Below, in pieces: positions 1,285-18,650 of a stretch of 40,273 nucleotides of DNA (position 1 is the stretch's first letter; every line of letters starts with the position of its first letter). The stretch comes from Pseudomonadota bacterium (lineage in GTDB: Bacteria; Myxococcota_A; Polyangia; Fen-1088): assembly GCA_017881315.1 (NCBI GenBank), contig JADGRB010000015.1, positions 1 through 40,273 on the forward strand. The letters are read 5' to 3'. The notes beneath the pieces are model-generated. The model saw only the letters and a list, made by a program, of their open reading frames with translations. It was not told the DNA's origin and did not search any database. The position numbers and the translations under genes were made by a program.

Positions 1285-2193
1285 TCAGCGCCGCGACGCG
1301 CGGCGTGCGCGCCGGGCGCCCGCCAGCAGCGCCGCGAAGACGCCCAGACCCACGAGCTCGATTCCATCCATCGGTGTGGGAACCGTCGCGCACGAGGCGC
1401 ATCCCCCCGCCGGCTGTGGCGGATGGTCGACCGGGTAGATCCCGCACAGGCCGGCCTGATCGTCGGGGGCCAGCGTCCTCTTCTGCGTGTCGCCCATCAT
1501 GGCCGACGGGTACATTGTGGTGGCCTGGACCGCCAGCGAGGCCTGGTCGCAGGCGGGAACCGGCTGACCGCTGTCGTCGGTGGGCTGCGGCAGGCTGCCG
1601 AGCGGGTTGTAGCAGGTGTGGTCGAGCCCGATCAGGTGCCCCATCTCGTGGGTGATGGCGTTCTGCAGGTCCATGTCGCCAGTCAGACCCGCATCCGCCG
1701 TCACGTCCGCCCAGACGTAGTCGAGGGTGTTGATTTCGATGTCGGAGTCGTAGATCTGGCCGGTCTTCTTGTTGGCGGTGTCGCTGGTGACCGCCAGGGC
1801 CATCGTGTCGTAGTCGGCCTCGCAGGTTCCGTCGGCGGCCAGCTGGCACCAGCTGGTGCTGCGGAAGACCACCGTGTTGAGGTGGTCGTAGGCGGGGATC
1901 GGCGTCGGGTCGGTCGACACGCTCAGCACCAAGTTCAAGTAGGTGCAGGCGTTCGCCCCCGCGCTCCAGGTGCTGGCCGCATCCAGGACCGCGGTGTCCA
2001 CCTGATCCGGGGTCATCGTCTGCTGGACGAAGTCATTGGGGTAAGCGGTGATCGGAACGGAGATCTGCCCCCAGAAGAATCCGTTGCCGCTGTCGGTCTT
2101 GTAGCGGACGTACGCCGCGGCGGGGCGGGCGAGCGACAAGACAGCGGCGACGGCGGTCGCGGTCAGGACCGCGGTTCCCCGAGACCGGGTCAT
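1285..2193 (-). CDS. Matrixin-like secreted zinc metalloprotease, paralogue of the next gene
   Basis: 302 residues starting at ATG 2193, whose A-T-G-A overlaps the TGA of the upstream gene. An N-terminal signal peptide ends near 'ARPAAA-YVR', the same 'AAAYVR' junction as in the neighbouring protease. The zinc motif HEMGHLIGLDH is at residues 182-192, with a downstream 'TTMYPSAMMGD' that can provide the Met-turn. The tail carries C265 and C268, a hydrophobic segment (about 276-292) and a terminal Arg-rich stretch, a MYXO-CTERM-like signal. The two proteases probably arose by tandem duplication. Known of the family: extracellular Zn-dependent peptidases. Inferred: surface anchoring or release, and co-expression with the 194-residue secreted protein. 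Confidence 0.87.
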   Translation of the reverse strand: MTRSRGTAVLTATAVAAVLSLARPAAAYVRYKTDSGNGFFWGQISVPITAYPNDFVQQTMTPDQVDTAVLDAASTWSAGANACTYLNLVLSVSTDPTPIPAYDHLNTVVFRSTSWCQLAADGTCEADYDTMALAVTSDTANKKTGQIYDSDIEINTLDYVWADVTADAGLTGDMDLQNAITHEMGHLIGLDHTCYNPLGSLPQPTDDSGQPVPACDQASLAVQATTMYPSAMMGDTQKRTLAPDDQAGLCGIYPVDHPPQPAGGCASCATVPTPMDGIELVGLGVFAALLAGARRARRASRR

Positions 2194-2774
2194 GGTCTGC
2201 CGCCGGGCGCCGCGGCCAGGGCGCGAACCTCGGCGCGCAGATCGGCGAGTGGGCGATCGCGGGTCTCGAACACCGGCGCCGCGCTGGCGGCCGGCGTCGC
2301 GCGCACGAAGTCGGCGCCGGCCCGATCGGGAGCGCTCACCATCCACCGCTTCGTGCCCCCCTCGCGGTGCAGGACGCGCTTGCCCTGCGCCATGCCGACG
2401 ACGCTGGCCTTGTCCGGGCGTCCGCGCAGAAAGACCAGCGCCCGCTCGCCGGGATCGAACCGCGTCATGCCCGCGATCGTCATCGTGATGTCGTCGACGG
2501 TCCCACCGGGTTGCACGACCAGCAGGTGCGTCGCGGGCGCCGCCGTCCCCTTCCAGCTGTCGACGACGACGAGATCGATCGTCGTGATGATCCGCTGATG
2601 CTGCTGATTCCAGGCGGCCTTGACCGACACCACGTCCACGACCGCGATCTGGTCCGCGCGCGCGACCATGTTCGGCAGATCGAGGGCCAGGATCAAGGAA
2701 GCCGACGCGGCGCGGGCGATCAGCAGGATCGCGATCAGCGCCAGCGGGGCAGATAGGCGACGTGCGGGAAGCAT
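2190..2774 (-). CDS. Secreted protein of unknown function, first gene of the protease operon
   Basis: 194 residues. The start at ATG 2774 gives a clear signal peptide (MLPARRL n-region, Leu/Ile-rich core, cut near 'RAASA-S') with GGTGG 4 bases upstream. The mature part is beta-rich: a 'MVARADQIAVVDVVSV' opening, 'TIDLVVVDSWKG', then 'VVQPGGTVDD' and 'FDPGERALVFLRG'. I recall this pattern in small secreted domains found beside myxobacterial matrixins, but I know no function. It overlaps the downstream protease by 4 bases (ATGA), so the three genes form one operon. No catalytic residues or metal motifs stand out; it could be an inhibitor, chaperone or adaptor of the proteases (inference from context only). 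Confidence 0.75.
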   Translation of the reverse strand: MLPARRLSAPLALIAILLIARAASASLILALDLPNMVARADQIAVVDVVSVKAAWNQQHQRIITTIDLVVVDSWKGTAAPATHLLVVQPGGTVDDITMTIAGMTRFDPGERALVFLRGRPDKASVVGMAQGKRVLHREGGTKRWMVSAPDRAGADFVRATPAASAAPVFETRDRPLADLRAEVRALAAAPGGRP

Positions 2775-2783
2775 CTCGCCACC

Positions 2784-2812
2784 ATGATACGGCGGAATAC
2801 CCACTTTGTTGA
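2784..2812 (-). promoter_or_regulatory. Candidate sigma-70-type promoter of the metalloprotease operon
   Basis: Read on the minus strand: TCAACA (4 of 6 to TTGACA), 17-base spacer, TATCAT (5 of 6 to TATAAT). The -10 box ends 9 bases before the ATG at 2774, so the predicted leader would be only a few bases long. Pattern match only. Confidence 0.4.
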
Positions 2813-2817
2813 GTCGC

Positions 2818-2852
2818 GCGGCACCGGTGCGGCCCGCGGCACCGGCGCGGCC
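2818..2852. repeat. Two-copy 18-bp tandem repeat
   Basis: GCGGCACCGGTGCGGCCC at 2818-2835 is followed at once by a copy (2836-2852) differing at one base. It lies between the ppk1 stop codon and the promoter of the protease operon. With only two copies in GC-rich DNA it may be a duplication without function. Confidence 0.5.
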
Positions 2853-2854
2853 AA

Positions 2855-5164
<2,310 letters not shown>

Positions 5165-5211: not shown

Positions 5212-6216
5212 TTAATGCGCGTCGGAGAGGAAGCCGGTTCTCCGCTCGGGGCCCTGAAACGTCGCCTGGACGGCCCGCCGATCGCGGCGGTGGCCGTGCG
5301 CGCGCAGGCGGGCGCTCTTGAGCGTCTCTTCCACCAGATCCTCGAAAGAGAGCCCGGCGCCGTGGGCGATCTTGGGGAGCAGGCTGTTCGGCGTCATGCC
5401 GGGCAAGGTGTTCAGCTCCAGGACCACCTCGTTGCCCCGCTCGCTGACGATGAGATCGACCCGGGTCGCCCCTTCACAGCCGAGCGCGTCGTGTGCCAGC
5501 GTGGCCAGGCGTAGCGCCGATCGGTAACGCTCGGGCGACAGGCGCGCCGGCAGGTGGTACTCGGTCCGTCCGCTCGTGTATTTGTTGCGGAAGTCATAGA
5601 ACCCGCGCTTGGGCACGATCTCGACGGCGCCCAGCGGTTTTCCGTCGAGGATCCCCACCGAGATCTCTTTCCCCTCGATGAACCGTTCGACCAGGACGTC
5701 ATCGTCGAACCGGAGGGCCTGCTCGACCGCGGCCTCCAGCTCCAGCTCGTCGCGCGCGACCCGGATGCCCAGCGACGACCCTTCGCCCGCCGGCTTCACC
5801 ACCACCGGGAAACCGAACGATCCGTGTGTCTCCAGCAGGTCCTCGCCGCTGTCCGACTGCACCACGTAGCCCGGCGCGGTCGGGAGGTTGTTGAGGCGGA
5901 AGATCTCCTTCGCGCGCGCCTTGTTCATGGCCAGCGCCGAGGCCAGCACACCGGATCCCGTGTACGGGATCCCCAGCAGCTCGAGCAGCCCCTGGATGCA
6001 GCCGTCCTCGCCGTAGCGGCCGTGCAGCGCCACGAAGGCGACGTCGATGCGCGATTGTCGCAAGACGAGATCGACGTCCCGGTCGACAAACAGCGGCCAG
6101 GCGTCGTAGCCCCGGTCCGCCAGCGCCGACACGATCGCCTCACCCGAGCGGATCGAGATGTCCCGCTCCGCCGACAGGCCGCCCATGAGCACACCGATCT
6201 TGCGCTGTCCGATCAT
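5212..6216 (-). CDS. ddl: D-alanine--D-alanine ligase
   Basis: 334 residues. Cytoplasmic ATP-grasp enzyme joining two D-alanines for peptidoglycan precursors. Family marks: 'KIGVLMGGLSAERDISI' at the N-terminus, 'FVALHGRYGEDGCIQGLLE', 'GIPYTGSGVLASALAMNK', 'VVKPAGEGSSLGI' (ATP-binding loop), 'KEISVGIL', and the C-terminal 'VLELNTLPGMT' with metal-binding Glu/Asn. ATG 6216 fits the usual family start; GGAGG lies immediately against it, an unusually short spacing, with another GAGG 12 bases upstream. No longer start preserves homology. A second Ddl-like ATP-grasp protein is encoded at 8808-9926; this one is the canonical ligase. Confidence 0.96.
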   Translation of the reverse strand: MIGQRKIGVLMGGLSAERDISIRSGEAIVSALADRGYDAWPLFVDRDVDLVLRQSRIDVAFVALHGRYGEDGCIQGLLELLGIPYTGSGVLASALAMNKARAKEIFRLNNLPTAPGYVVQSDSGEDLLETHGSFGFPVVVKPAGEGSSLGIRVARDELELEAAVEQALRFDDDVLVERFIEGKEISVGILDGKPLGAVEIVPKRGFYDFRNKYTSGRTEYHLPARLSPERYRSALRLATLAHDALGCEGATRVDLIVSERGNEVVLELNTLPGMTPNSLLPKIAHGAGLSFEDLVEETLKSARLRAHGHRRDRRAVQATFQGPERRTGFLSDAH

Positions 6217-6374
6217 CCTCCACGGGTAACCTCGGGGCAGACGGGCGTCAAAAAATCTACCTGGATTTTGCGAGGGCCGCGCGGCGGCGCCGCCCGTTTC
6301 CCACCTCTGCCGCGGCGGCCTTCCGGACGCAAAGCCCCCTCGCGTCACCGCGATCTGTGATAAAGACGGGCGCA
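6217..6374. other. Divergent intergenic region between ddl and the HARE/Mrr-like gene
   Basis: 158 bases that must hold the promoters of both divergent genes. I see a perfect 12-bp palindrome GGCGGCGCCGCC at 6283-6294 and a short A/T-rich patch near 6249-6270, but no convincing -35/-10 pair on either strand. Confidence 0.4.
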
Positions 6375-8099
6375 ATGACGTTTCTGGAAGCGGCCTTCGA
6401 AGTCCTTCGTCGGGAGGGGAAGCCGCTGCATTACAAGGAGCTGACGGAGCGCGTCCTCGGCAAGAAGCTGCTGACCTTCGTGGGCCGCACGCCGGAGGTG
6501 ACGATGCAGACGCAGCTCACCGGCGCGGTCAAGAAGGCGCCGGGAAACCCCTTCGTGCGGGTGAAACCGGGGATCTTCGGCCTGCTCCGCTATCCCGAGC
6601 TGACGCCGGAAGAGCGGGCGGCGGCCGCCAAGGCCGAGGAAGCGCCCCCGCCGCGCGCGAGCGCAGCGCCGGCCCGGGCGGGCGCGACCGCCGAAGGCGG
6701 CGCCGCAGGTGAAGGCGGACGTCGTCGCCGTCGGCGGGGGGGCCGAGGCCACGGGCGAGACGACGTCGCCAGTCCGACCGCAAATCCGACCGGAGTTTCG
6801 ACCGGACTTGCTGCGGCTGGAGACGACGGCGAAGGCGACGAGCCCGCGCCGAGCGGCCTGTCGGCGGAAGCGCGGGCGGCGGCGTTGGCCGAAACGGGTG
6901 TCTTGGAAGGCGACGACGACGCCGCTGGCGATGAGGAGGACTCACGGGCGATGGACGCGATGGAAGACGACGAGACCACGGACGCGCCCGGCGCTGTCGA
7001 TGAAGGTGCGCCGCCTGCCGGCGTCCCCGACGGCGGCGAGGGAAGTCGCCCAGGTTTGGAAGCGGGCGGCGGCGCTGCCCGCGGCGCGGGTGCCCTGGCC
7101 GACGACGGTCGACGACGACGCCGCCGGCGCCGGCGCGGCGGGCGCGGTGAAGGGGAGGGCTTCGGCGATGCCCCGCGTGGGGGCGAGACGGCCGCTGCCG
7201 CGCCCAGCGCGGAGGCGTCCAGCTTTTCATCGACGGAATCGGGCCTCGAAATGGGCCCCGGCCCGGCCGATGCTGGCGGTTCGATGGGGCAGCCCGGCGC
7301 GGACGATGGCGATCGTCAGGGTCCACGCCGGATCATGACCCCGGTGGATGCGGCGATCGAAATCCTGCGCGGCCAGGCTCCAGGGCGCGGCATGCACGTC
7401 CGGCAGATCGCGGACGGTGCGGCCCGCCGCCGCCTGGTGCACGGCGAGCCCAACGAGGCCTGGCGGGTGATGCGGACGGCGCTCTCCGCCGAGCCGCGCG
7501 AGCGCCTGCGCGCGGGCCTGCGGCCGCGCGTTCGCGCCGCGGGCGCCGGGCTGTTCGCCCTGGCCCGTCGGCCACCGGACGCCGAGCTCGAGCGCGCCGA
7601 ACAGGTATTCGGCGAAGCGCGGCGCGCGCTGCGCGAGCGGACGCTGGCCGCGCTCGAGCGCCGCATCGCCGACCTGCCGGGCTCGGCCTTCGAGGCGCTC
7701 ACCCGCGTCCTGATCCAGCACGAAGGTTTCGGCCCGGCCACCTTCGTCAAACGGGTCGAGGGGACGGTTTATGTCGAGGCGAAGCGCGGTCGCGGCGCCC
7801 GCCCGTCGAAGTGCCTGATCGGCCTCCGCTTCGGCTCGTCCTCGGGCGGCCGCGCGAGCATCGGTGTGCTGCGCGAGGGGATCCTCGCGCGCGGCCAGGA
7901 CGAAGGCCTGCTCATGCTGGCGGGGCGTCTGGCCGAGGACGCGATCACCGAGTGGAAGAAAGCCGGCCCGCCCATCGAGATCGCGGACGGTCCGGCCCTG
8001 GCGGAGACCTGTGTGCGGCACGGCATCGGGGTCGTGAGCGCGATGGTCAGCGTCGATTTCGTCGATGCGGACTTCTTCGCGGAGATCGCAGAAGGCTAG
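6375..8099 (+). CDS. Double HARE-HTH protein with Arg-rich linker and Mrr-like C-terminal domain
   Basis: 574 residues from ATG 6375; an in-frame GTG at 6357 adds six residues and has no better signal. Residues 1-70 ('MTFLEAAFEVLRREGKPLHYKELTERVL') form a HARE-HTH (RpoE-delta/ASXL-type winged helix) domain. Residues about 90-315 are low-complexity Ala/Gly/Asp/Glu with two Arg runs near 115 and 250. Residues about 319-405 ('TPVDAAIEIL...GMHVRQIADGA') look like a second, more diverged HARE-HTH. Residues about 435-574 resemble the Mrr restriction-endonuclease fold ('FEALTRVLIQHEGF' start, 'PPIEIADGPALAETCVRHGIGV' end). The D...(E/Q)xK catalytic set is not clear; 'VEAKRG' is the only candidate. 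It probably binds nucleic acid; nuclease activity is uncertain. Its end overlaps the proposed lipB start by 35 bases. Confidence 0.75.
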   Translation: MTFLEAAFEVLRREGKPLHYKELTERVLGKKLLTFVGRTPEVTMQTQLTGAVKKAPGNPFVRVKPGIFGLLRYPELTPEERAAAAKAEEAPPPRASAAPARAGATAEGGAAGEGGRRRRRRGGRGHGRDDVASPTANPTGVSTGLAAAGDDGEGDEPAPSGLSAEARAAALAETGVLEGDDDAAGDEEDSRAMDAMEDDETTDAPGAVDEGAPPAGVPDGGEGSRPGLEAGGGAARGAGALADDGRRRRRRRRRGGRGEGEGFGDAPRGGETAAAAPSAEASSFSSTESGLEMGPGPADAGGSMGQPGADDGDRQGPRRIMTPVDAAIEILRGQAPGRGMHVRQIADGAARRRLVHGEPNEAWRVMRTALSAEPRERLRAGLRPRVRAAGAGLFALARRPPDAELERAEQVFGEARRALRERTLAALERRIADLPGSAFEALTRVLIQHEGFGPATFVKRVEGTVYVEAKRGRGARPSKCLIGLRFGSSSGGRASIGVLREGILARGQDEGLLMLAGRLAEDAITEWKKAGPPIEIADGPALAETCVRHGIGVVSAMVSVDFVDADFFAEIAEG

Positions 8100-8811
8100 G
8101 GGTCGCGCGCTGGAAGCCGTCTGGCGCTGGCTCGGTCGCGCGCCCTATGCGGCGACCGTTGCGTATCAGGAGCGGCTGCGCGCGGCGATCCTGAGTGGGG
8201 AGGGACCGGAGACGCTGCTCCTGTGTGAGCACGATCCGGTGATCACGCTCGGTCGCTCGGCGAACGCGTCCAACGTGCTGGCGTCTCCGGCCGAGCTGGC
8301 GCGTCGCGGGATCGCCGTCGAACGGATCTCGCGGGGGGGCGACGTCACCATTCATCTTCCCGGCCAGCTGGTCGGCTATCCGGTGGTGCGCCTGCGCCGC
8401 GGCGTGGTCGATCACATGACCGCCATGTCGCGCGCGCTCATTGCCGTGCTGGCCGAGCTCGGGGTGGAGGCGAGCTGGCGGCGCGACGCGCCCGGCCTGT
8501 GGGTCGCCGGCGCGAAGATCTGCGCGTTCGGCGTCAACGTGCACCGGCGGGTCGCCATCCACGGCTTCGCGCTCAACGTCGCGATCGACCCCGGCCCCTT
8601 CGCGCTCATCGTTCCCTGCGGGCTGACGGGCGCGCGGCTCACCTCGATCGCGGAGATCGCGGGCGCGGCGCCCACCCTGCCGACGATCGCCGCGCGCGCG
8701 GCGATCGCGCTCGGCTCCGAGCTGGGCGTGACGTTCCATTCCAAAATCGACCGATCTGCGCGCGACCCAATTGCAATGCGAGATTGGATCACTAAAATGA
8801 TCGGTGCGTGA
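8065..8811 (+). CDS. lipB: Octanoyl-[acyl-carrier-protein]:protein N-octanoyltransferase
   Basis: 248 residues. LipB moves octanoyl groups from acyl-ACP to lipoyl domains (E2 subunits, GcvH), the first step of endogenous lipoate synthesis. Visible motifs: 'LLCEHDPVITLGRSA', 'SRGGDVTIHLPGQLVGYPVV' (RGGxxTxHxPGQ), K151 in 'GAKICAFG' and C185 in 'IVPCGL'. The 34-residue spacing of this Lys/Cys pair equals that of the E. coli catalytic pair K169-type arrangement (K135/C169). ATG 8065 overlaps the preceding gene by 35 bases; no ATG/GTG lies closer to the conserved 'WRWLGRAPYA' opening, so the start is slightly uncertain. The stop overlaps the GTG of the next gene (GTGA). LipA is not in the window. 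Confidence 0.93.
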   Translation: MRTSSRRSQKARGRALEAVWRWLGRAPYAATVAYQERLRAAILSGEGPETLLLCEHDPVITLGRSANASNVLASPAELARRGIAVERISRGGDVTIHLPGQLVGYPVVRLRRGVVDHMTAMSRALIAVLAELGVEASWRRDAPGLWVAGAKICAFGVNVHRRVAIHGFALNVAIDPGPFALIVPCGLTGARLTSIAEIAGAAPTLPTIAARAAIALGSELGVTFHSKIDRSARDPIAMRDWITKMIGA

Positions 8812-9926
8812 AGTCCGCCGACAAGCCGCGCGTCCTGGTCGTCTACAACCGCGACTTCGAAAGCGCCGAGGACGATCCGGAGAATTGCGCCCGCGCCGAT
8901 ATTCGCGGGACGGCCGAAGACGTCGTGCGCGCTCTCGGCGGTGGCGCATACCGGGTGAGCGCGCTGGGCGTCACCGACGATCTGCTGGGTGCCGTCGCGA
9001 AGATCGTGGCCGAGGCGCCCGATGTCGTCTTCAACCTATGCGAGTCGATCGACGGCGTGAGCAGCCTCGAGCCGCTGTTGCCGCTCCTGCTGGAGCGCGC
9101 GGGTCTTGCCTACACCGGTTCCTCGCCGCTGACCTTGGGCCTGTCGCTGCACAAGCACAAGGCCAAGGCGGTATTGCGCGGCGCGGGCGTGCCGACGCCC
9201 GAAGCGGCGGTGCTGACGACCCCCGACGTCTCCAAGGTCGCGCTTCCGTTTCCTCTGATCGTCAAACCCGCCCGCGAGGACGCCTCGGTCGGAATCTCGA
9301 GCGACTCCGTGGTCCACGATCGCGCCGCGCTGGAACGCCAGGTGACCTTCGTGCTCGCCCGTTACCGGCAGCCTGCGCTGGTCGAGAGATACATCGAGGG
9401 CCGCGAGATCTACGTTTCGATACTGGATCGGCCGGGCGCCGAGATCGAGATCTTGCCCCTGCACGAGATCGATTTCTCCGAGATGCCCGTGGGACGCCCG
9501 CGCATCGTCTCGTTCGAAGGGAAGTGGGTGGAGTCCTCGCCCGAGTTCAGCGGAACCAAGCCGGTTCCCTGCACGGGGCTCACCACGGCCACCGTGGATC
9601 GGATCGCCGAGGTGGCCCGGACCGCGTTTGCCGCCATGGAGCTGCGAGACTACGCCCGTCTCGATCTGCGGCTTTCGGCAGACGGCACGCCCTACGTCAT
9701 CGACGTGAACCCGAACTGCGATCTTTCGGCGCGGGCGGGATTCGCGCGGGCCGCGCAGGCGGCGGGCCTGGATTACGCCGAGGTGGTTCGGCGAATCGTC
9801 GCCCTGGCCCTGACGAGGCGCCCCCGCGCGGATGCGATTCCCCTGGCGGTGCGCTCGCGCGTGGCCCATCGAAATCCCGTGGTCTTGGGCGATCGACCCG
9901 CTCGCCGCCGCGCGCGCTCGGGCTGA
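8808..9926 (+). CDS. D-Ala-D-Ala ligase-like ATP-grasp protein
   Basis: 372 residues, GTG start in a 4-base GTGA overlap with lipB. It has the layout of Ddl-type ATP-grasp ligases: 'VFNLCESIDGVSSLEPLLPLLLERAGLAYTGS' (as in 'VFP.LHG..GEDG..Q..LE'), 'HKHKAKAVLRGAGVPTPE', 'FPLIVKPAREDASVGIS' (ATP loop), 'GREIYVSIL' and 'DVNPNCDLS' near the C-terminus for metal ligation. The 'LHGxxGED' signature is replaced by 'NLCESIDG', so it is probably not the housekeeping ligase (ddl at 5212-6216 is). The C-terminal 35 residues are Arg-rich and outside the fold. Such enzymes ligate amino or imino acids; the substrate cannot be read from the sequence. Confidence 0.82.
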   Translation: MKSADKPRVLVVYNRDFESAEDDPENCARADIRGTAEDVVRALGGGAYRVSALGVTDDLLGAVAKIVAEAPDVVFNLCESIDGVSSLEPLLPLLLERAGLAYTGSSPLTLGLSLHKHKAKAVLRGAGVPTPEAAVLTTPDVSKVALPFPLIVKPAREDASVGISSDSVVHDRAALERQVTFVLARYRQPALVERYIEGREIYVSILDRPGAEIEILPLHEIDFSEMPVGRPRIVSFEGKWVESSPEFSGTKPVPCTGLTTATVDRIAEVARTAFAAMELRDYARLDLRLSADGTPYVIDVNPNCDLSARAGFARAAQAAGLDYAEVVRRIVALALTRRPRADAIPLAVRSRVAHRNPVVLGDRPARRRARSG

Positions 9927-10950: not shown

Positions 10951-11013
10951 CGACATATTGCCAACTAGATATTATTATAATTTTTTAGCTTAAATTGCAA
11001 TAAGATATGGTGA
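10951..11013 (+). promoter_or_regulatory. AT-rich promoter island before the kinase/sigma-54 activator gene
   Basis: About 60 strikingly AT-rich bases in GC-rich surroundings. An exact TATAAT is at 10976-10981; no good -35 box lies 16-18 bases upstream, so an activator may be needed. GCCAACT at 10960-10966 repeats the left half of the palindrome found at 16037-16053. TTGCA at 10995-10999 resembles a sigma-54 -12 box but has no GG twelve bases earlier, so I do not call a sigma-54 promoter here. Confidence 0.5.
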
Positions 11014-14000
11014 GTGCCGGCTGCCAATATAGTTGACGACCCGGATCCGGGCGGACTCCCAGCTCGATATCGGCTGGGCGAGCGTCTCGGCAGTGGCGCC
11101 GCCGGTGAGACCTTCGCCGCCGTCGACGCGACGACCGGCCTCAACTGCGTCCTCAAGATCTTCGCGCCCGACGCCGGCTCACGGCGGCTCGCGCTGGCGG
11201 AATTCCGGGGCCTCGAGACGCTGGCCCATCCGAGCGTCGCACGGTTCCGCGACATCGGCCGCTGCGACGATGGGCGCCTCTTCCTGGTCACCGATCGAAT
11301 CGTCGGCCCCGGCGTCGAAAGCGTGGCGAGCATCGCCGACGAAGCCCGCCGCCGGGCCGTCTTCCAGCGGGTGGCGCTGGATCTCGCCTCCGCCCTGGCG
11401 CACCTGCACGCGCGCGGCATCGTCCATGGCGATGTCTGTCCCGCCAACGTTCGGCTGTCGGAGGCGGCTGGGTCGGATCCACGCGCGGTCCTGATCGATT
11501 TTGGGTTGGCGGGCGCCCCCCTGCCCAGCGGCGGTGGGGCGCGCGGCACGCTCGGCTATGCGGCCCCTGAGGCGCTGACCGGTGCGCGATCGCCGGCGGT
11601 GGACCTGTTCGCGGTCGGCGCGACGCTGTTCGAGGCCTGGAGCGGAACGTCTCCCTTCGGTCAGGGCTTGTCGGCCGTCGAGCGCATGCTGGCCGGTCGC
11701 GCGCCCAGGCTCTCGTCGATTCGACCCGGGCTCGGCGAAGGCTGGGATCGATTGCTCGATCGATTGCTGGCCGCAGATCCCACCGAGCGGCCCGCGGGCG
11801 CACGGGAGCTCCTGCGCGAGGTGCTGCGGCTCTCCGCGGGCGAGGCCACCCCGACCGAGGTGGATCTGGGTGTTCCCTATCCAGAGGGCGATCCCTTGGC
11901 CGGGATCGTGGTTGGCCGACGGGCGGAGCGTGCCGCCCTGCGGGCGGCGCTCGACAAGCTGTCGGAGGGGATGGCGCCGACGTCGGTCCTGGCGTTGCTC
12001 GGGGCGCCCGGCGCCGGGCGGCGCACGCTCTTCGAGCTCGTCGCGCGCGACGTGGCGGTGGCGATCGCGGCGGGGACGATGGCGCCGATCGAGGTGTGGC
12101 GGGGGGATCTCGAGGCGCTGGAGCGCTTCCTCGGAATCGGTCCGGCCGGCCCCGACGAGGACGCCCAGCGCGCCGCCGAGGCGGCCATGGCGTCCGTGGC
12201 CGAGGCGATCGAGGTGCGGGCGCGCGACCGCCCGCTGTGCGTGTTTCTGGAGGAGGGTCCTGGCGCCGCGCTCTTCGCGGCCTTCGTGGCGGGCGCGCCA
12301 CCGACGGGACGGACGCTGCTGGTCCTGCCTTCCGTCTCACCGATCGAACGGCCGTTCGCGCTCGGGATCGCGCTCGCACCGCTGACGGCTCTCGAAGTCG
12401 GAGAGCTGGTCGCGGCGGGTGTCGACGTCTCGCCGCCGCCCGGGGTGACCGAGCGCATCGCCAGCGCCGCCCGGGGGAACGTCGCGCTCGCGGCGGTGCT
12501 GGCGCGTCGGCTCATCGCGAGCCTCAGATCGGGAGGCGACGCGGCGGTGGCGATCGAGCCTGGCGCCGATCTGGACCTGCTCCTGCAACGAAGCCTGGCG
12601 GCGCTGGTCCCGGAAGCCCAGCGGTGGGTGGTCGCCACCGCTCTGGTGGGGGACGACGCGGCGGGGGCTGCGGCCTTCGACGAAGAGACGGCGGCGCGCG
12701 CGTCATCCGCGGCACGCGCCGCGGGATGGATCGACCTCGGGCCGCAGGGGGAGCCCCGACTTCCCAGCGCCGCCCATCATCGAGCCGCTCTGGCCGCCGC
12801 GCCGCGGGCGATGGCCCAGGAGATCGCGGATAACGCGCTTCGATTTCTGGGCGCCGACGATCCGCGGCGCGCCGACGCGCTGGCGACCGCCGGCCAGGCG
12901 GGCCTCGCCGCGGAGGTTCTTCGGCGGGCCGCCTCGGCGGCGCTCGCGGTGGGCGCGGGTGGCCGGGCCGCGGCGCTCTTGGAGCGGGCCGACCTGCTCG
13001 CCCCCGCCGCCCTCGATTTCGCGGAGCGGCTCACCTTGGCGACGGGTCTGGGACTCCTTGGCCGCTACGACGATGCCGCGGCCGTGCTCAGGGCCGCCCG
13101 CGCACAGGCCCGCGGGGCGGTGGAGACGGCCACCAGCAGCGAGCGCGAGGCCTGGCTGCTCGCGCGGAGGGGAGATCTGGAGGGCGCCCGACTGACGCTC
13201 GAGCGGGGTCTCGCCGAGAGCGCCGCGGCCAGTCTGGCGGCGGTCGGCCTGCGCGCGCGCCTCGGTCGGTTGCTGGTCACGGCGGGCCGGTTCGCAGAGT
13301 CGCTGGCGATCGTCGAGCCGCTGCTGGGGGATCGGGACTTGCTAGCGACGGAGAGTGGGGCACGCGCGCTGTGCCTCGAATCGGCGCTCCTGGCCGGCGC
13401 CTACCTCGGCCAGCTGCCGCGCGCGCGGCAGCGCCTGGTGGAGCTCTCGGAGATGTCGGGCGCCAGCCCGACCCGGCTGGCCTATCTCGAAGGGTTGTTG
13501 GCGCAGCTGGCGGGCGACGAAGATCTGGCCCGCGAGGCCTACCGGCGGGCGTACCAGATCGGATCGCGGCAGAACGACGTCCACACGGTCGCCGCGGTGG
13601 CCTTGAACCTGGGCGGCCTCCTCACCGAAGAGGGCCTGTACGGGGAGGCGCTGACGGCCAGCGCGCGGGCGGTGCGGGAGCTGGGACGCCTGGGCGCCGC
13701 CGCCGAGCTGCTGCCGGCGCTGGTGAACGCCGCGAACCTGTTTGTCGAGCTCGGTGATCTCTCCGCCGCACGGCGAGCGATCGAGCGGGCGCGGGGCCTG
13801 GGACCCGGCGGCGCCACGACGCGGGCCCTGGCCACCGCGACCTTCGTCGAAGGCGATCTGGCGCGCCGGTCGGGGCAGCTGGAGGCCGCGGTGGGGCACT
13901 ACCGATCGGCGGCGGCTCTGTTCGCCGAGCTCGGGCAGCCGGCGGGCTCCGCCAGCGCGCTCCTCGCCGCCGCCGAGTTAATGGCACTCGGCGGTCGCTC

Positions 14001-16005
14001 CGACGAGGGGCGACGTGCGCTCGCGGAGGCGGAGCAGCTCCGGGGCCCGCGGGCCGAGCTGGCCGACGATCCCGAGCTCGCGCGGACCCGGGCCATCCTC
14101 GCGCTGGCCGACGGGGGCGGTGACGAGTCTCCCGGGGCGCTGGGGTACCGACTGGTCGAGCTCGCGCGCCGCGCCCGCGCCCGCGCGCAACGACCGCGCG
14201 CGTGGCGATTGGCCGCGCTGGCGGGCCGTCTCGCCGCGCGCGCCGGCGCGCAGGATGAGGCCCGCGCCCGCTTGGATCTGGGACGCGTCATCTTTGAGGA
14301 GGTTCGCATGGCCACACCGGAACATCATCGCGCCGCGCTCGATCGGGATCCCGACGCGGCCTGGCTCCGCCCCGAGGGTTCTCGGGCGCCCGGCGACGAG
14401 CCCGATGCGGCCCGCGCCATCGCCGCCGAATCGCGGTTGCGACGGCTCTTGCGGATCAACAAGCGCCTCAACAGCGAGCTGCGGTTGCCGCGCTTGCTGG
14501 AAATGATCGTCGACACCGTCATCGAGCTGACCGACGCCGAGCGCGGGTTTCTGTTGCTCGAGGACGATAGCGGGGAGCTCAACGTCAAGGTGGCGCGCAA
14601 CATCGATCAGCAGACGCTCGAGACCGCGGAATTCGAGCTCTCCCGATCGATCGCGCGGCAGGCGGCCGAGGGCGGCGAGCCGATCGTCACCATCGACGCC
14701 GCGGGCGACGCGCGTTTTCGGGAGGCGGTCTCGGTCTCTGATCTCCACCTCCGGTCGGTTTTAGCGGTCCCGCTGGTCATCAAGGGCCGCGCCGCCGGAA
14801 CGATCTACGTCGATCACCGGCTCCGCAAGGGGGCCTTCGATCAGGAGGACGTCCGGCTGGTGCTCGACTTCGCCGAGCAGGCCGCGATCGCGCTGGAGAA
14901 CGCGCGGTTGCTGGCCGAGCTGCGCCGCCGCGAGCGCCAGATCGAGGCGCTCAACCGGCGTCTCGAGACCGAGCTGGCGGCGCGCCGGGAGGAGCTGTCC
15001 GGCATCAAGGTCGAGCTGCGCGAGAGCCGCGAGGCGCTGGCCGTGCGCTACGACTACCGGAACATCATCGGGCGCACGCCCCGCATGCTGGAGCTGTTCC
15101 GGCTCATCGATCGCATCACCGACACCGCGCTGTCGGTCGTGATTCAAGGAGAGAGCGGCACGGGCAAGGAGCTGGTGGCGCACGCCCTTCATGCCAACGG
15201 CCCCCGCAAGGATCGCCCCTTCGTCAGTGAAAACTGCGCGGCGATTCCGGAGACGCTTCTCGAATCGACCCTGTTCGGGTACGTGCGCGGCGCCTTCACC
15301 GGAGCCGAGCACGACACGCGCGGCCTGTTCGAGATCGCGGACGGCGGCACCTTGTTCCTCGATGAGGTCGGCGAGATGTCGCCCGGCATGCAGGGGAAGC
15401 TGCTGCGGGTCCTGCAGGACGGAGAGATTCGGCGGGTCGGCAGCGAGCGGACGCGGAAGGTCGATGTCCGCGTGGTCGCGGCGACCAACCGCGATCTCAC
15501 GCAGATGGTCGAGGAGGGGAAGTTCCGCCGCGATCTCTTCTTTCGGCTCAACGTCGCGACGATCGCGCTGCCGCCGCTCCGCGATCGCCGCGACGACATT
15601 CCGCTGATGGTCGAGAGCTTTCTGGCCAAGCTGGCGAAGGCGGCGGGGCGGCCCGCGCCGAAGCCATTCGATCCGGCGGTGCTGGCATGCCTGCTGGCCT
15701 ATCGATGGCCCGGCAACGTCCGCGAGCTCGAAAACGAGATGATCCGCGCGGACGCGCTCTCAGGGCCGCGGATCACGGTGGGCGATCTGTCGCCCCGGAT
15801 CGCCGCGGGCGAGGTCGGCGGCGGGCGGACCGCCGAAGATCCCGACAGCCTGTCGCTCAAACCCCGGGTCGAGCGTCTGGAGCGCTCGCTCCTCCGTGAG
15901 GCGCTGGGCCGCTCCGGAAACAACCAGACCAAGGCCGCAGATTTACTCGGGCTTTCCCGCTTCGGCCTCCAGAAGAAGCTGAAGCGCTACAATTTCGTGG
16001 TCTGA
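11014..16005 (+). CDS. Ser/Thr protein kinase - NTPase - TPR - GAF - sigma-54 activator fusion protein
   Basis: 1663 residues, GTG start. Order of domains: protein kinase (about 18-275; VLK with K48, H138-G139-D140 in place of HRD, D162FG, 'GYAAPEA'); an NTPase-like region (about 290-560) with a P-loop-like GAPGAGRRT at 330-338 in which the usual Lys is Arg; Ala/Leu-rich TPR-type repeats (about 600-1100); GAF domain (about 1140-1300, 'AERGFLLLEDDSGELNVKVARN', 'SVLAVPLVIKGR'); coiled coil (about 1300-1345); AAA+ sigma-54 activator domain (1350-1575) with Walker A GESGTGKE near 1380, GAFTGA at 1426-1431 and 'GGTLFLDEVGE'; and a Fis-type HTH at the end ('NNQTKAADLLGLSRFGLQKKL'). It should open sigma-54 promoters in response to a signal sensed upstream. 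No response-regulator receiver domain. Probably soluble: no membrane helix. Confidence 0.95.
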   Translation: MPAANIVDDPDPGGLPARYRLGERLGSGAAGETFAAVDATTGLNCVLKIFAPDAGSRRLALAEFRGLETLAHPSVARFRDIGRCDDGRLFLVTDRIVGPGVESVASIADEARRRAVFQRVALDLASALAHLHARGIVHGDVCPANVRLSEAAGSDPRAVLIDFGLAGAPLPSGGGARGTLGYAAPEALTGARSPAVDLFAVGATLFEAWSGTSPFGQGLSAVERMLAGRAPRLSSIRPGLGEGWDRLLDRLLAADPTERPAGARELLREVLRLSAGEATPTEVDLGVPYPEGDPLAGIVVGRRAERAALRAALDKLSEGMAPTSVLALLGAPGAGRRTLFELVARDVAVAIAAGTMAPIEVWRGDLEALERFLGIGPAGPDEDAQRAAEAAMASVAEAIEVRARDRPLCVFLEEGPGAALFAAFVAGAPPTGRTLLVLPSVSPIERPFALGIALAPLTALEVGELVAAGVDVSPPPGVTERIASAARGNVALAAVLARRLIASLRSGGDAAVAIEPGADLDLLLQRSLAALVPEAQRWVVATALVGDDAAGAAAFDEETAARASSAARAAGWIDLGPQGEPRLPSAAHHRAALAAAPRAMAQEIADNALRFLGADDPRRADALATAGQAGLAAEVLRRAASAALAVGAGGRAAALLERADLLAPAALDFAERLTLATGLGLLGRYDDAAAVLRAARAQARGAVETATSSEREAWLLARRGDLEGARLTLERGLAESAAASLAAVGLRARLGRLLVTAGRFAESLAIVEPLLGDRDLLATESGARALCLESALLAGAYLGQLPRARQRLVELSEMSGASPTRLAYLEGLLAQLAGDEDLAREAYRRAYQIGSRQNDVHTVAAVALNLGGLLTEEGLYGEALTASARAVRELGRLGAAAELLPALVNAANLFVELGDLSAARRAIERARGLGPGGATTRALATATFVEGDLARRSGQLEAAVGHYRSAAALFAELGQPAGSASALLAAAELMALGGRSDEGRRALAEAEQLRGPRAELADDPELARTRAILALADGGGDESPGALGYRLVELARRARARAQRPRAWRLAALAGRLAARAGAQDEARARLDLGRVIFEEVRMATPEHHRAALDRDPDAAWLRPEGSRAPGDEPDAARAIAAESRLRRLLRINKRLNSELRLPRLLEMIVDTVIELTDAERGFLLLEDDSGELNVKVARNIDQQTLETAEFELSRSIARQAAEGGEPIVTIDAAGDARFREAVSVSDLHLRSVLAVPLVIKGRAAGTIYVDHRLRKGAFDQEDVRLVLDFAEQAAIALENARLLAELRRRERQIEALNRRLETELAARREELSGIKVELRESREALAVRYDYRNIIGRTPRMLELFRLIDRITDTALSVVIQGESGTGKELVAHALHANGPRKDRPFVSENCAAIPETLLESTLFGYVRGAFTGAEHDTRGLFEIADGGTLFLDEVGEMSPGMQGKLLRVLQDGEIRRVGSERTRKVDVRVVAATNRDLTQMVEEGKFRRDLFFRLNVATIALPPLRDRRDDIPLMVESFLAKLAKAAGRPAPKPFDPAVLACLLAYRWPGNVRELENEMIRADALSGPRITVGDLSPRIAAGEVGGGRTAEDPDSLSLKPRVERLERSLLREALGRSGNNQTKAADLLGLSRFGLQKKLKRYNFVV

Positions 16006-16036
16006 ATGGCCGATTCGAGAACCAGGTTGCGGCCAT

Positions 16037-16053
16037 CGCCAACTCGGTTGGCG
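16037..16053. promoter_or_regulatory. 17-bp perfect palindrome, candidate activator site or terminator stem
   Basis: CGCCAAC-TCG-GTTGGCG is a perfect 7-bp dyad with a 3-base centre, 32 bases after the activator gene and centred about 74 bases before the predicted sigma-54 start site. It could be the binding site of the activator's Fis-type HTH. It could also be a terminator stem for the 11014-16005 transcript, but no T tract follows. Confidence 0.45.
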
Positions 16054-16092
16054 TCTCGCCGTCCATCCAGGCGGGTTTATGCGACATCGCGT

Positions 16093-16108
16093 GGGCGTGG
16101 TTCTTGCT
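16093..16108 (+). promoter_or_regulatory. Candidate sigma-54 (-24/-12) promoter
   Basis: GGGCGTGgttcTTGCT matches TGGCACG-N4-TTGCW at 9 of 12 defined positions, including the invariant GG (16094-16095) and GC (16106-16107) exactly ten bases apart. The stretch after the -12 box is T/A-rich, as is usual. Predicted transcription start is about 16119, giving an 18-base leader with GAGG 11 bases before ATG 16137. It lies directly behind a gene for a sigma-54 activator. Confidence 0.55.
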
Positions 16109-16136
16109 GTTTATCTCTCACGAGGCAATCCGTACG

Positions 16137-16553
16137 ATGAGCTCACGTCGCGGTCGCTGGATAAAAATCGGTACGCTGCTCCTGGCGTTCGTGGGGCTCG
16201 GCGCCTGCATCGCGCCGATCCTCAATGTCCCGCCCCCAGGTGCGATGCAGATCTCGTTCACCTCTACGGTCATCACCGACGCCGACGGCGGCCAGAGGAC
16301 GGTTTGGACGACCGAGGGTGGACCTCTGCTGTCGGCCGCGCTGGCGACGTACTACGTTCGCGATAAGACGCTCGGGGCCGGGCTGTTCGCGACCGCGCGC
16401 GACGACGGCTCGTTCACGGCGCGCGACATGGACGGCACGGCGGGCGATCCGATCCAGATCTACTACGTGACGCCGGCCGGCGATTACAGCGAGTCGATCT
16501 GCGTCTTGCTGATGCCGGGTACTGCTTCGCCGGCGTCGCTCTGCCCGCCATAG
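16137..16553 (+). CDS. Small lipoprotein of unknown function
   Basis: 138 residues. ATG 16137 is chosen over the in-frame TTG 16104 because it has GAGG upstream and lies downstream of the predicted sigma-54 start site. The leader 'MSSRRGRWIKIG' plus a Leu/Val core ends in LGAC (C24), a lipobox. The rest is short beta-type sequence ('MQISFTSTVITDADGG', 'DPIQIYYVTPAGDYSESICV'), reminiscent of a small immunoglobulin-like or transthyretin-like domain, but I cannot assign it. It follows the 1663-residue activator gene and is the first gene behind the putative sigma-54 promoter, so it is a plausible target. Its last 70 bases overlap, on the opposite strand, the end of the small regulator gene 16484-16711. 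Confidence 0.75.
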   Translation: MSSRRGRWIKIGTLLLAFVGLGACIAPILNVPPPGAMQISFTSTVITDADGGQRTVWTTEGGPLLSAALATYYVRDKTLGAGLFATARDDGSFTARDMDGTAGDPIQIYYVTPAGDYSESICVLLMPGTASPASLCPP

Positions 16554-16711
16554 CCAGGGAGCCGGCGAACCTCCTCGCGCGCCAGCCGCCAGGCTGCCTG
16601 AATGATCCAGGAGATCGATCGGTCCTGACGGATCGCCTCGAGCTGCGTTTCGCCCAGCACGCTGGAGTTGAAGTACAGCGTCACTTTCTTCTTCGGCGAC
16701 GACGACGACAT
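16484..16711 (-). CDS. Small ribbon-helix-helix-like putative regulator
   Basis: 75 residues from ATG 16711. The N-terminal 52 residues, 'KKKVTLYFNSSVLGETQLEAI' through 'DRSISWIIQAAWRLAREEVRRLP', match what I remember of a small myxobacterial family (TIGR04563 type): a beta strand 'KVTLYF' followed by two helices, as in ribbon-helix-helix DNA-binding proteins. The last 20 or so residues ('GGQSDAGEAVPGIS...') look unstructured and are exactly the part encoded antisense to the lipoprotein gene 16137-16553. It is the last gene of a minus-strand group with two outer-membrane barrels, 18 bases after the stop of the second. A role in DNA binding is inferred from the fold only. No clear Shine-Dalgarno sequence. 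Confidence 0.75.
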   Translation of the reverse strand: MSSSSPKKKVTLYFNSSVLGETQLEAIRQDRSISWIIQAAWRLAREEVRRLPGYGGQSDAGEAVPGISKTQIDSL

Positions 16712-16729: not shown

Positions 16730-17587
16730 CTAGGGTGAGATGCTCGCGGTCGACGGCAGGTAGAACACGATGTTCGCCGTCACCATGAAGGTGTGGCTCC
16801 AGGTGAGATCGTTCGCGTTCGCGACGCCGTCGCCGTTGTTGTCGCGGCCGGACGGATTGAGCTGGGCCATGATGTCGCGGAGCTCGACGTTGAGCGCCAT
16901 CCATTCATTGAAGTAGCTGTGCAGCCCGACGCCGAAGTTGGCGCCGAATTTGGCCCCGCTCACCTTGCAGGAAAACGGTCCTCCGGGCCCGCCCGACGCG
17001 GTCGGGGGGGCTGCCATGACGGAGCCACAGTCGGTGAGGCTGCTGCCGTCCGTAGGCGCGACGTTGAGCAACCCCGGACCGCCGAAGACATAGAAGTCGT
17101 AGTTCGCGAACATCTTGCCGGCCAGAGAGTACTTCCCGGTGAACGGCGTGAATTCGAGCTGGGCGCCCAGGATGCTGCTGATCTTCTGCATCGAGGCCTT
17201 GGCTGCGTCCCGGAGCGGTTCGTTCGGTGGCTGGCCCATGTCGGCGGCATAGAGCGAGTTCACCAGGTCGTTCTGAAAGGTCGTCGCGATGTTGGCCACC
17301 GCGAAGCCACCGAAGGCCGACAGGGAAAGCCAGTCGGTGATGTGGAAGCCGATCTTCAGGTTCAAGAACATCGTGTGGTAGAAATCTTGGTTCAGCGTGG
17401 TTCCGAATCCTGCCCCGACTTCCAGGCGGGTGGCGCGCAGCTCGAAGCGCTTTCGGATGGCGGGCGCATCGGCCAGGGGGCTCTTTCGCTGCGCCTGGGC
17501 GGCCAGTGGCACCGCGGTCAACGCCAGGGCCACGAGCAGCGCGGAGAGCCGGGATCGGCGATGTCCGCAGTTCGGCTTCATGTTCAT
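16730..17587 (-). CDS. Outer-membrane beta-barrel domain protein
   Basis: 285 residues. The start at ATG 17587 is supported by AAGGA eight bases upstream and by the signal peptide that follows (His/Arg n-region, 'LSALLVALALTAVPL', cut after 'AQAQ'). The mature protein has alternating-hydrophobicity strands typical of an 8- to 12-stranded barrel: 'RLEVGAGFGTTLNQDFYHTMFLNLKIGFHI', 'WLSLSAFGGFAVAN', 'YDFYVFGGPGLLN', 'GLHSYFNEWMALNVELRDI', and a last strand 'HTFMVTANIVFYLP'. This resembles the myxobacterial outer-membrane barrel domain family (TIGR04565 type, from memory). It contains a probable extracellular loop rich in Gly/Pro with a Cys pair. Same operon and fold as the gene at 17658-18650. 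Function unknown; could be structural or a pore. Confidence 0.82.
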   Translation of the reverse strand: MNMKPNCGHRRSRLSALLVALALTAVPLAAQAQRKSPLADAPAIRKRFELRATRLEVGAGFGTTLNQDFYHTMFLNLKIGFHITDWLSLSAFGGFAVANIATTFQNDLVNSLYAADMGQPPNEPLRDAAKASMQKISSILGAQLEFTPFTGKYSLAGKMFANYDFYVFGGPGLLNVAPTDGSSLTDCGSVMAAPPTASGGPGGPFSCKVSGAKFGANFGVGLHSYFNEWMALNVELRDIMAQLNPSGRDNNGDGVANANDLTWSHTFMVTANIVFYLPSTASISP

Positions 17588-17657
17588 GGGCTTGTCCTTT
17601 GTCGAGCGCCGGGTCGCTTGCAGGTTGAGATCCGCGTTCAGGTTCATGGACGCCGCC

Positions 17658-18650
17658 CTAACGGGGAGTCTTGTACTGGAACTTCGTCGGCAGATAGATC
17701 CCGGCGCCGACATAGAACATCAAGTTATTCACCAGCGCCGAATGCGCGTTGGCCTTGGCCTGATCGGCGGTCGTGATCCCGGCAGCGGCGCCGTCATTGA
17801 TCGGCTCGAACTTGTCGGGGACGATGTAGTCGCGCAGCGCGAAGTTCACTGTCAGCCAGTCGAAGAGGAAGAACCGGCTCCCGATGCCCACGTTGGGTGT
17901 GAGGTCGGTGTTCTGGAAGGCCAGCGAATCGTTGGCGGGATCGCGCGGGATCACCTTGGTGATCGTCACGCCGACACCGGCCGAGGCCCACATCTCCCAG
18001 TGCATGATCGACCGATTGAAGAGGGCGAACTTCCCATAGAGCGGGACGTACCCGAAGTTCAGCGAGCCCCCGTAGAGGTACTTATTCAGCGTGGGTGCTC
18101 GGTTGTACTCCAGGCCAACCAGCTCTTCCTGGTTGGTGAGCTGCTTGAGAAAATATTGTCCTTGAACCCCGATCCAGAACACGTCGGTCAGGTAGAAGTT
18201 GAGGTCCGCGCCGAAGACGTAGTGGCGGATCAAGCTATCGTTGACCGACATGCCGGTGAACGGCTGGAACTCGAATCGTCCGCCCTTGAGGAAACGCTTG
18301 CGCGGCACCACGACGATGTCGCTCCAGCTCAGGGTCGAGCTCGGCCGGACCACTTTCGGTCCGCCGCCGATATCTTCCTCGACCTTTGCGGGTTGCCCTT
18401 CCTCCGCCTCCAGACTTTCGCTGGGGGCGGCGGCCGCGCCGCCGGCTTTGCCGCCCGCCGCCGGTTTTGCGTCATCGGCGGGCGCGGCCTTCTGGTCGCC
18501 CGAATCGCCGCCGCCTGCACTGCTGTCCGCTGGTTGGTCCGCTGCCGCTGCCGGAGCCGCCGCCTTCCCGCCTCCCTTTTTCGCGTGTCCGGTCGCGGCC
18601 CACCCAACGATGGCAACCCATACGAAAAAGCAGATGGCCGGTCGCTTCAT
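17658..18650 (-). CDS. Outer-membrane beta-barrel domain protein with Ala/Gly/Pro-rich N-terminus
   Basis: 330 residues, ATG 18650 with GAGGG 4-8 bases upstream. Signal peptide 'MKRPAICFFVWVAIVGWAATGHA'. Residues about 24-95 are low-complexity Ala/Gly/Asp/Lys/Glu, likely a flexible periplasmic linker. From about 105 on, barrel-type strands: 'RFEFQPFTGMSVNDSLIRHYVFGADLNFYL', 'FWIGVQGQYFLK', 'SIMHWEMWASAGVGVTI', 'NVGIGSRFFLFDWLTVNFALRDYI', ending 'LMFYVGAGIYLPTKF'. The strand 'LTVNFALRDYI' parallels 'MALNVELRDI' of the neighbour, so the two are paralogues. First gene of the minus-strand group; promoter at 18742-18771. I do not know the function; the pairing suggests a hetero-complex or loci for gliding/envelope proteins (inference). 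Confidence 0.82.
   Translation of the reverse strand: MKRPAICFFVWVAIVGWAATGHAKKGGGKAAAPAAAADQPADSSAGGGDSGDQKAAPADDAKPAAGGKAGGAAAAPSESLEAEEGQPAKVEEDIGGGPKVVRPSSTLSWSDIVVVPRKRFLKGGRFEFQPFTGMSVNDSLIRHYVFGADLNFYLTDVFWIGVQGQYFLKQLTNQEELVGLEYNRAPTLNKYLYGGSLNFGYVPLYGKFALFNRSIMHWEMWASAGVGVTITKVIPRDPANDSLAFQNTDLTPNVGIGSRFFLFDWLTVNFALRDYIVPDKFEPINDGAAAGITTADQAKANAHSALVNNLMFYVGAGIYLPTKFQYKTPR

Follow-up and report, generated by a model that had tools for sequence, protein, structure and literature searches.

What does a giant sigma-54 enhancer-binding protein, fused to a kinase-like domain, control? The question is raised by a 40,273-nucleotide stretch of a myxobacterial contig (hereafter the window), in which the gene for such a protein of 1663 amino acids (11014-16005, plus strand) is followed by a small lipoprotein gene. 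A first-pass annotation of this DNA had proposed that a dyad and a -24/-12 promoter between the two genes form a self-contained switch by which the activator drives this one lipoprotein, and that a half-site in the activator's own promoter would allow autoregulation. In the literature searched, chiefly open-access papers, no description of such a regulon and no described function for this kinase-fused activator were found.

The dyad, the promoter, the ribosome-binding site and the start codon are all present as annotated. The perfect dyad CGCCAAC-TCG-GTTGGCG (16037-16053, plus strand) forms the proximal operator and is conserved in homologous loci. The promoter GGGCGTGGTTCTTGCT (16093-16108, plus strand) comprises GG at 16094-16095, ten bases and GC at 16106-16107, with 9 of 12 consensus letters, and places the predicted transcript start of the lipoprotein gene at about 16119. 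The ribosome-binding site GAGG (16122-16125, plus strand) precedes the ATG at 16137 of a gene (16137-16553, plus strand) for a 138-residue product with a signal peptide, the lipobox LGAC, whose cysteine has an equivalent in the homologues, and a PPP motif after the cysteine. Overlooked in the first pass were a distal dyad GAGAACCAGGTTGCG (16017-16031, plus strand), which agrees with the motif in 8 of 10 letters and precedes the proximal dyad by 21 bp, an operator at 11023-11037 and further target genes elsewhere in the genome. A site in the register of the distal dyad recurs in relatives, and AAC-N3-GGTTG is conserved in the alignment of the upstream regions.

The 3' end of the lipoprotein gene is overlapped on the opposite strand by the gene for a TIGR04563-family ribbon-helix-helix-like protein (16484-16711, minus strand), adjoined by that for a TIGR04565 outer-membrane barrel protein (16730-17713, minus strand); recognisable pieces of one or both members of this pair also lie beside the lipoprotein in loci L010, L012, L015, L016, L019, L020 and L033. 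Elsewhere in the window, reading frames 314-1849 and 1285-3000 (both minus strand) encode two adjacent, similar secreted proteins with the zinc-protease-like motifs HEFGHFIGLGH and HEMGHLIGLDH. Two D-Ala-D-Ala-ligase-like ATP-grasp proteins are encoded at 5212-6375 (minus strand) and 8808-9926 (plus strand), the Pfam check having covered the second only.

The activator was identified from Pfam domains and motifs. It consists of a kinase-like domain, a long central region, a GAF domain, an AAA+ domain with lid, and a Fis-type helix-turn-helix (HTH). The AAA+ domain scores 234 bits against PF00158, with Walker A (GESGTGK, residue 1379) and GAFTGA (residue 1426) both intact, and the C-terminal HTH matches PF02954 at residues 1619-1659. 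Among orthologues the HTH motif LGLSRxGLxKK is invariant, and GAFTGA is kept in 60 of the 64 long ones. Sigma-54 itself (rpoN; PF04552, 216 bits) is encoded in the same genome, which has more than 30 sigma-54 AAA+ domains. The kinase-like domain of the window protein contains VLK, with its lysine at residue 48, as well as HGDVCPAN and DFG, with HGD in place of HRD, and HRD occurs in none of the 64 long orthologues. In a motif search, the Nannocystis orthologues L143, L146-L148, L152 and L157 were found to keep HGD...N and to have no VAIK-type lysine or DFG, which suggests that this part may be a pseudokinase in the Nannocystis lineage.

Conservation of the dyad and of the GG/GC pair in relatives, the check proposed with the first-pass annotation, was then determined. 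A protein-level search for the lipoprotein covered 59 genomes including the window's own, 25 of which contained a homologue, and the upstream regions of these 25 were chosen by protein similarity alone, not by motif. A dyad of the CAAC-N3-GTTG type, agreeing with GNCAACNNNGTTGNC at 9 or more of its 10 letters, was present upstream of all 25, and in 24 it was followed by GG-N10-GC scoring at least 8 of 12; L028 has a perfect dyad but GC-N10-GC instead. Both elements together were found in 3 of 5,000 dinucleotide shuffles (0.06%) and in 2.3% of 420-bp stretches drawn at random from the fetched loci, real sites included. When close relatives are aligned, the dyads, the GG and the TTGC stand out amid diverged DNA. 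The distance from the dyad to the -24/-12 element falls mostly into two registers, 55-58 and 76-79 bp, and deviates in L017, L021 and L026. The two registers look like a tandem arrangement with two helical turns (21-22 bp) from site to site, at least one of the two being strong; of the window's pair, the proximal dyad is perfect and the distal one weaker. Sequence comparison thus confirmed the predicted lipoprotein switch as evolutionarily conserved, not a product of chance, and the proposal of a sigma-54 promoter with an upstream dyad driving the lipoprotein gained support from the conservation of both elements.

The activator's C-terminus is encoded directly upstream of the lipoprotein in 20 of the 25 loci. 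In some families the activator is located elsewhere in the genome, and genomes that lack the adjacency have a single orthologue at another site. When named genomes were scanned with the HTH, 80 loci emerged, almost all in myxobacteria, including Nannocystis, Enhygromyxa, Polyangium, Minicystis, Sorangium, Kofleriaceae and many metagenome-assembled genomes. The activator gene of Nannocystis and Enhygromyxa is followed by one for a lipoprotein that shares the PPP motif, and most of the loci in Nannocystis also have a perfect dyad with a -24/-12 element, more widely spaced, in the intervening DNA; in distant Polyangiaceae the lipoprotein does not adjoin the activator. Sampling across the phylum placed the strongest HTH matches in the window's class, most of them within long proteins. 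Those from the other classes were weaker, occurred mostly in shorter proteins and were therefore left out of the orthologue count.

The same operator type occurs at the start of the activator gene. The dyad GCCAATATAGTTGAC (11023-11037, plus strand; 9 of 10 motif letters) lies inside the first codons, and 63 bp from it the site GCCAACTAGATATTA (10960-10974, plus strand) carries the half-site GCCAAC (10960-10965). This upstream site is a half-site only, below the threshold of the operator-pair count; at that spacing, orthologues have a more complete site, such as GACAACAAGATAGGC in L051. Full-length orthologues of the window's family have an operator at their own start, within the first codons or just beside them, and TATAAT or a similar -10 element between the operators, a few bases before the likely start codon. 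An operator pair in the 60-69 bp bin was found in 33 of 54 activator genes (32 of them at 62-67 bp), a set that includes close relatives, so that the counts are not independent; the other 10-bp bins held 3-9 pairs, and the Markov shuffles gave 0.13%. Because the operator overlaps the activator's first codons, it fits repression better than activation, and the recurrence of pairs 62-67 bp apart in orthologues suggests negative feedback. The geometry of operators straddling the start suggests repression, perhaps by looping, a direction of regulation that we deduce from the layout. The proposed autoregulation is supported, and the GCCAAC at 10960 on which it was based is real, but this half-site is the weaker partner of the operator at 11023-11037.

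The notion of a self-contained switch for one lipoprotein was not borne out: copies of the module also stand before additional lipoprotein genes in trans, and some families have the activator elsewhere in the genome. Only five exact dyads occur in the window's own genome, and in four of these the first letter of the -24/-12 element follows the dyad start by 54 or 55 bp. These four sites precede the window lipoprotein and three lipoproteins with a von Willebrand factor A (VWA)-like domain (C50, C186 and C244). The fifth (C386) was rejected as a target; the DNA around it looks coding and has no promoter at a suitable spacing. A further site (C27), with an imperfect dyad and a near-consensus promoter, lies upstream of another lipoprotein gene. 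A fixed-spacing scan of this genome with two mismatches allowed returned 34 matches against 29 for the reversed-pattern control, and for that reason only the exact matches and C27, with its near-consensus promoter, were retained. The statement that the activator drives the lipoprotein therefore holds in part: the adjacent activator is the likely dyad binder, but the lipoprotein is not its sole target. Upstream of the dyad at 1501-1515 of L060 (minus strand; G000:C244), GCCAAC/GTTGGC half-sites are repeated (GTTGGCCAACCTTGTGGC repeated), and this array before a VWA-like lipoprotein gene suggests a larger operator cluster.

Across genomes, the composite pattern of dyad and promoter matched 87 times where an HTH orthologue is present (40 genomes) and 7 times where none is (19 genomes), the corresponding counts for the reversed pattern being 26 and 9; several genomes with the orthologue have no exact composite match. 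This tally is an unbiased test of the co-occurrence of motif and activator. In relatives the pattern leads mainly to VWA-like and small PPP lipoprotein families. Among 31 relative loci that were fetched, 21 have VWA-like lipoproteins and two have small PPP lipoproteins, a fraction that is illustrative only, as the loci were picked partly by promoter quality. In L104 (217-4000, plus strand) one dyad with its -24/-12 element is followed by three consecutive genes for VWA-like lipoproteins.

We consider it probable (roughly 0.8) that the activator binds the tandem dyads, drives a sigma-54-dependent lipoprotein regulon and very likely limits its own expression. The module, its spacing, the set of genes downstream, the co-occurrence with the activator and the paired operators can be read directly in the genomes compared. 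DNA binding, sigma-54 dependence, activation, repression, the signal and the role of the products are what we infer from them. The activator would bind tandem CAAC-N3-GTTG-type dyads two helical turns apart, which lie some 75 and 96 bp before the start of transcription from -24/-12 promoters. It would thereby switch on a small envelope-lipoprotein regulon, with the adjacent PPP-motif lipoprotein as its member in cis and members in trans that are mostly VWA-like. Its own vegetative-type promoter would very likely be limited through the second operator pair, about 64 bp apart and straddling the start. The signal would presumably be received by the kinase-like and GAF parts.

The dyads might instead be bound by another sigma-54 activator or by an unrelated DNA-binding protein, with the kinase-fused protein acting elsewhere. 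The abundance of sigma-54 AAA+ domains in the genome would leave room for this, as would the families that have the site without the activator adjoining. We regard it as unlikely in view of the adjacency in 20 of 25 loci, the recurrence of the operator at the activator's own start, the restriction of the motif excess to genomes with its HTH, and the single orthologue found elsewhere in genomes that lack the adjacency. The repressive look of the operator at the activator's start would also accord with the dyads at the lipoprotein genes being repressor sites, a vegetative promoter being used and GG-N10-GC being incidental. This seems quite unlikely, as GG and GC are invariant in the 24 module loci, mostly at fixed distances from the dyad, and 60 of the 64 long orthologues retain GAFTGA, as would be expected if contact with sigma-54 is needed. 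Chance was also weighed: GC-rich DNA often offers GG-N10-GC, several weaker matches occurring per 420-bp upstream region, and the dyad could be a coincidence. Only 3 of 5,000 shuffles reproduce the module that 24 of the 25 homologous loci conserve, and this, together with the fixed spacings, contradicts the explanation, which is hardly credible. Binding of the dyads by the kinase-fused activator, with activation from the -24/-12 promoters, is the reading carried forward here.

Searches of the PDB with the small lipoprotein sequence returned nothing convincing. AlphaFold2, run on 30 aligned mature sequences, gave a confident model (mean pLDDT 91.1), a beta-sandwich with weak Foldseek similarity to Ig-like modules, including those of the adhesins Bap and SiiE (best E 0.006); these weak matches say only that the small lipoprotein is predicted to be an Ig-like beta-sandwich. 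The VWA-like lipoproteins scored 20.6-32.8 bits against the MIDAS family adhesin model NF052240, whose cut-off is 700 bits, with the weak profile similarity lying at the start of the VWA-like domain. The metal site DxSxS is DNSSS in C244 and degenerate in C50 (DDTPA) and C186 (DDTSA). Some of the predicted target lipoproteins resemble adhesins, and an adhesive function may be supposed for them.

These results provide a giant kinase-fused activator of one myxobacterial class with a predicted binding site, promoter architecture and target set. If true, they would connect signalling of the Ser/Thr-kinase/GAF type with lipoproteins of the envelope, some of them similar to adhesins of predation and gliding. 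The predictions of site, spacing, transcript start and target genes are sharp and can be tested in cultured Nannocystis and Enhygromyxa. A bolder and rather doubtful extension would be a class-wide myxobacterial regulon in which the kinase-fused activator turns on coordinated surface adhesins and limits itself through a DNA loop between the operators about 64 bp apart, as a negative-feedback switch for surface or prey contact.

Sigma-54 has been discussed as a controller of the bacterial exterior, for example through Rrp2 and lipoproteins in Borrelia (PMC3162934). A sigma-54 activator devoted to envelope lipoproteins would fit that theme; the part of that source drawn on here deals with general associations, and the present regulon is not among them. 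CglB of M. xanthus is a VWA-domain lipoprotein adhesin for gliding (PMC4488436, PMC12282271), to which some of the targets, as lipoproteins with a VWA-like domain, are likened by domain type without a claim of homology. Bd0875 of Bdellovibrio is a MIDAS-family adhesin (PMC11003981). CglB and Bd0875 offer precedents, at the level of function, for VWA lipoproteins that act as adhesins (PMC12282271, PMC11003981), with no claim of family membership. The targets share with Bd0875 and NF052240 a lipobox followed by a VWA/MIDAS-type domain, but they fall far below the family cut-off, they are longer, and two of the three VWA-like products of the window's genome are without DxSxS. With the GAF-gated enhancer-binding proteins NifA and NorR the activator shares a GAF input, an AAA+ domain with GAFTGA and a Fis-type HTH, as well as binding sites upstream of -24/-12 promoters, which are predicted for the window activator; the NifA model is its best NCBIfam match, below the NifA cut-off. 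Unlike NifA and NorR, it has a kinase-like domain fused at its N-terminus and a long central region, its predicted targets are envelope lipoproteins, and many of its orthologues carry paired operators 62-67 bp apart at their own start.
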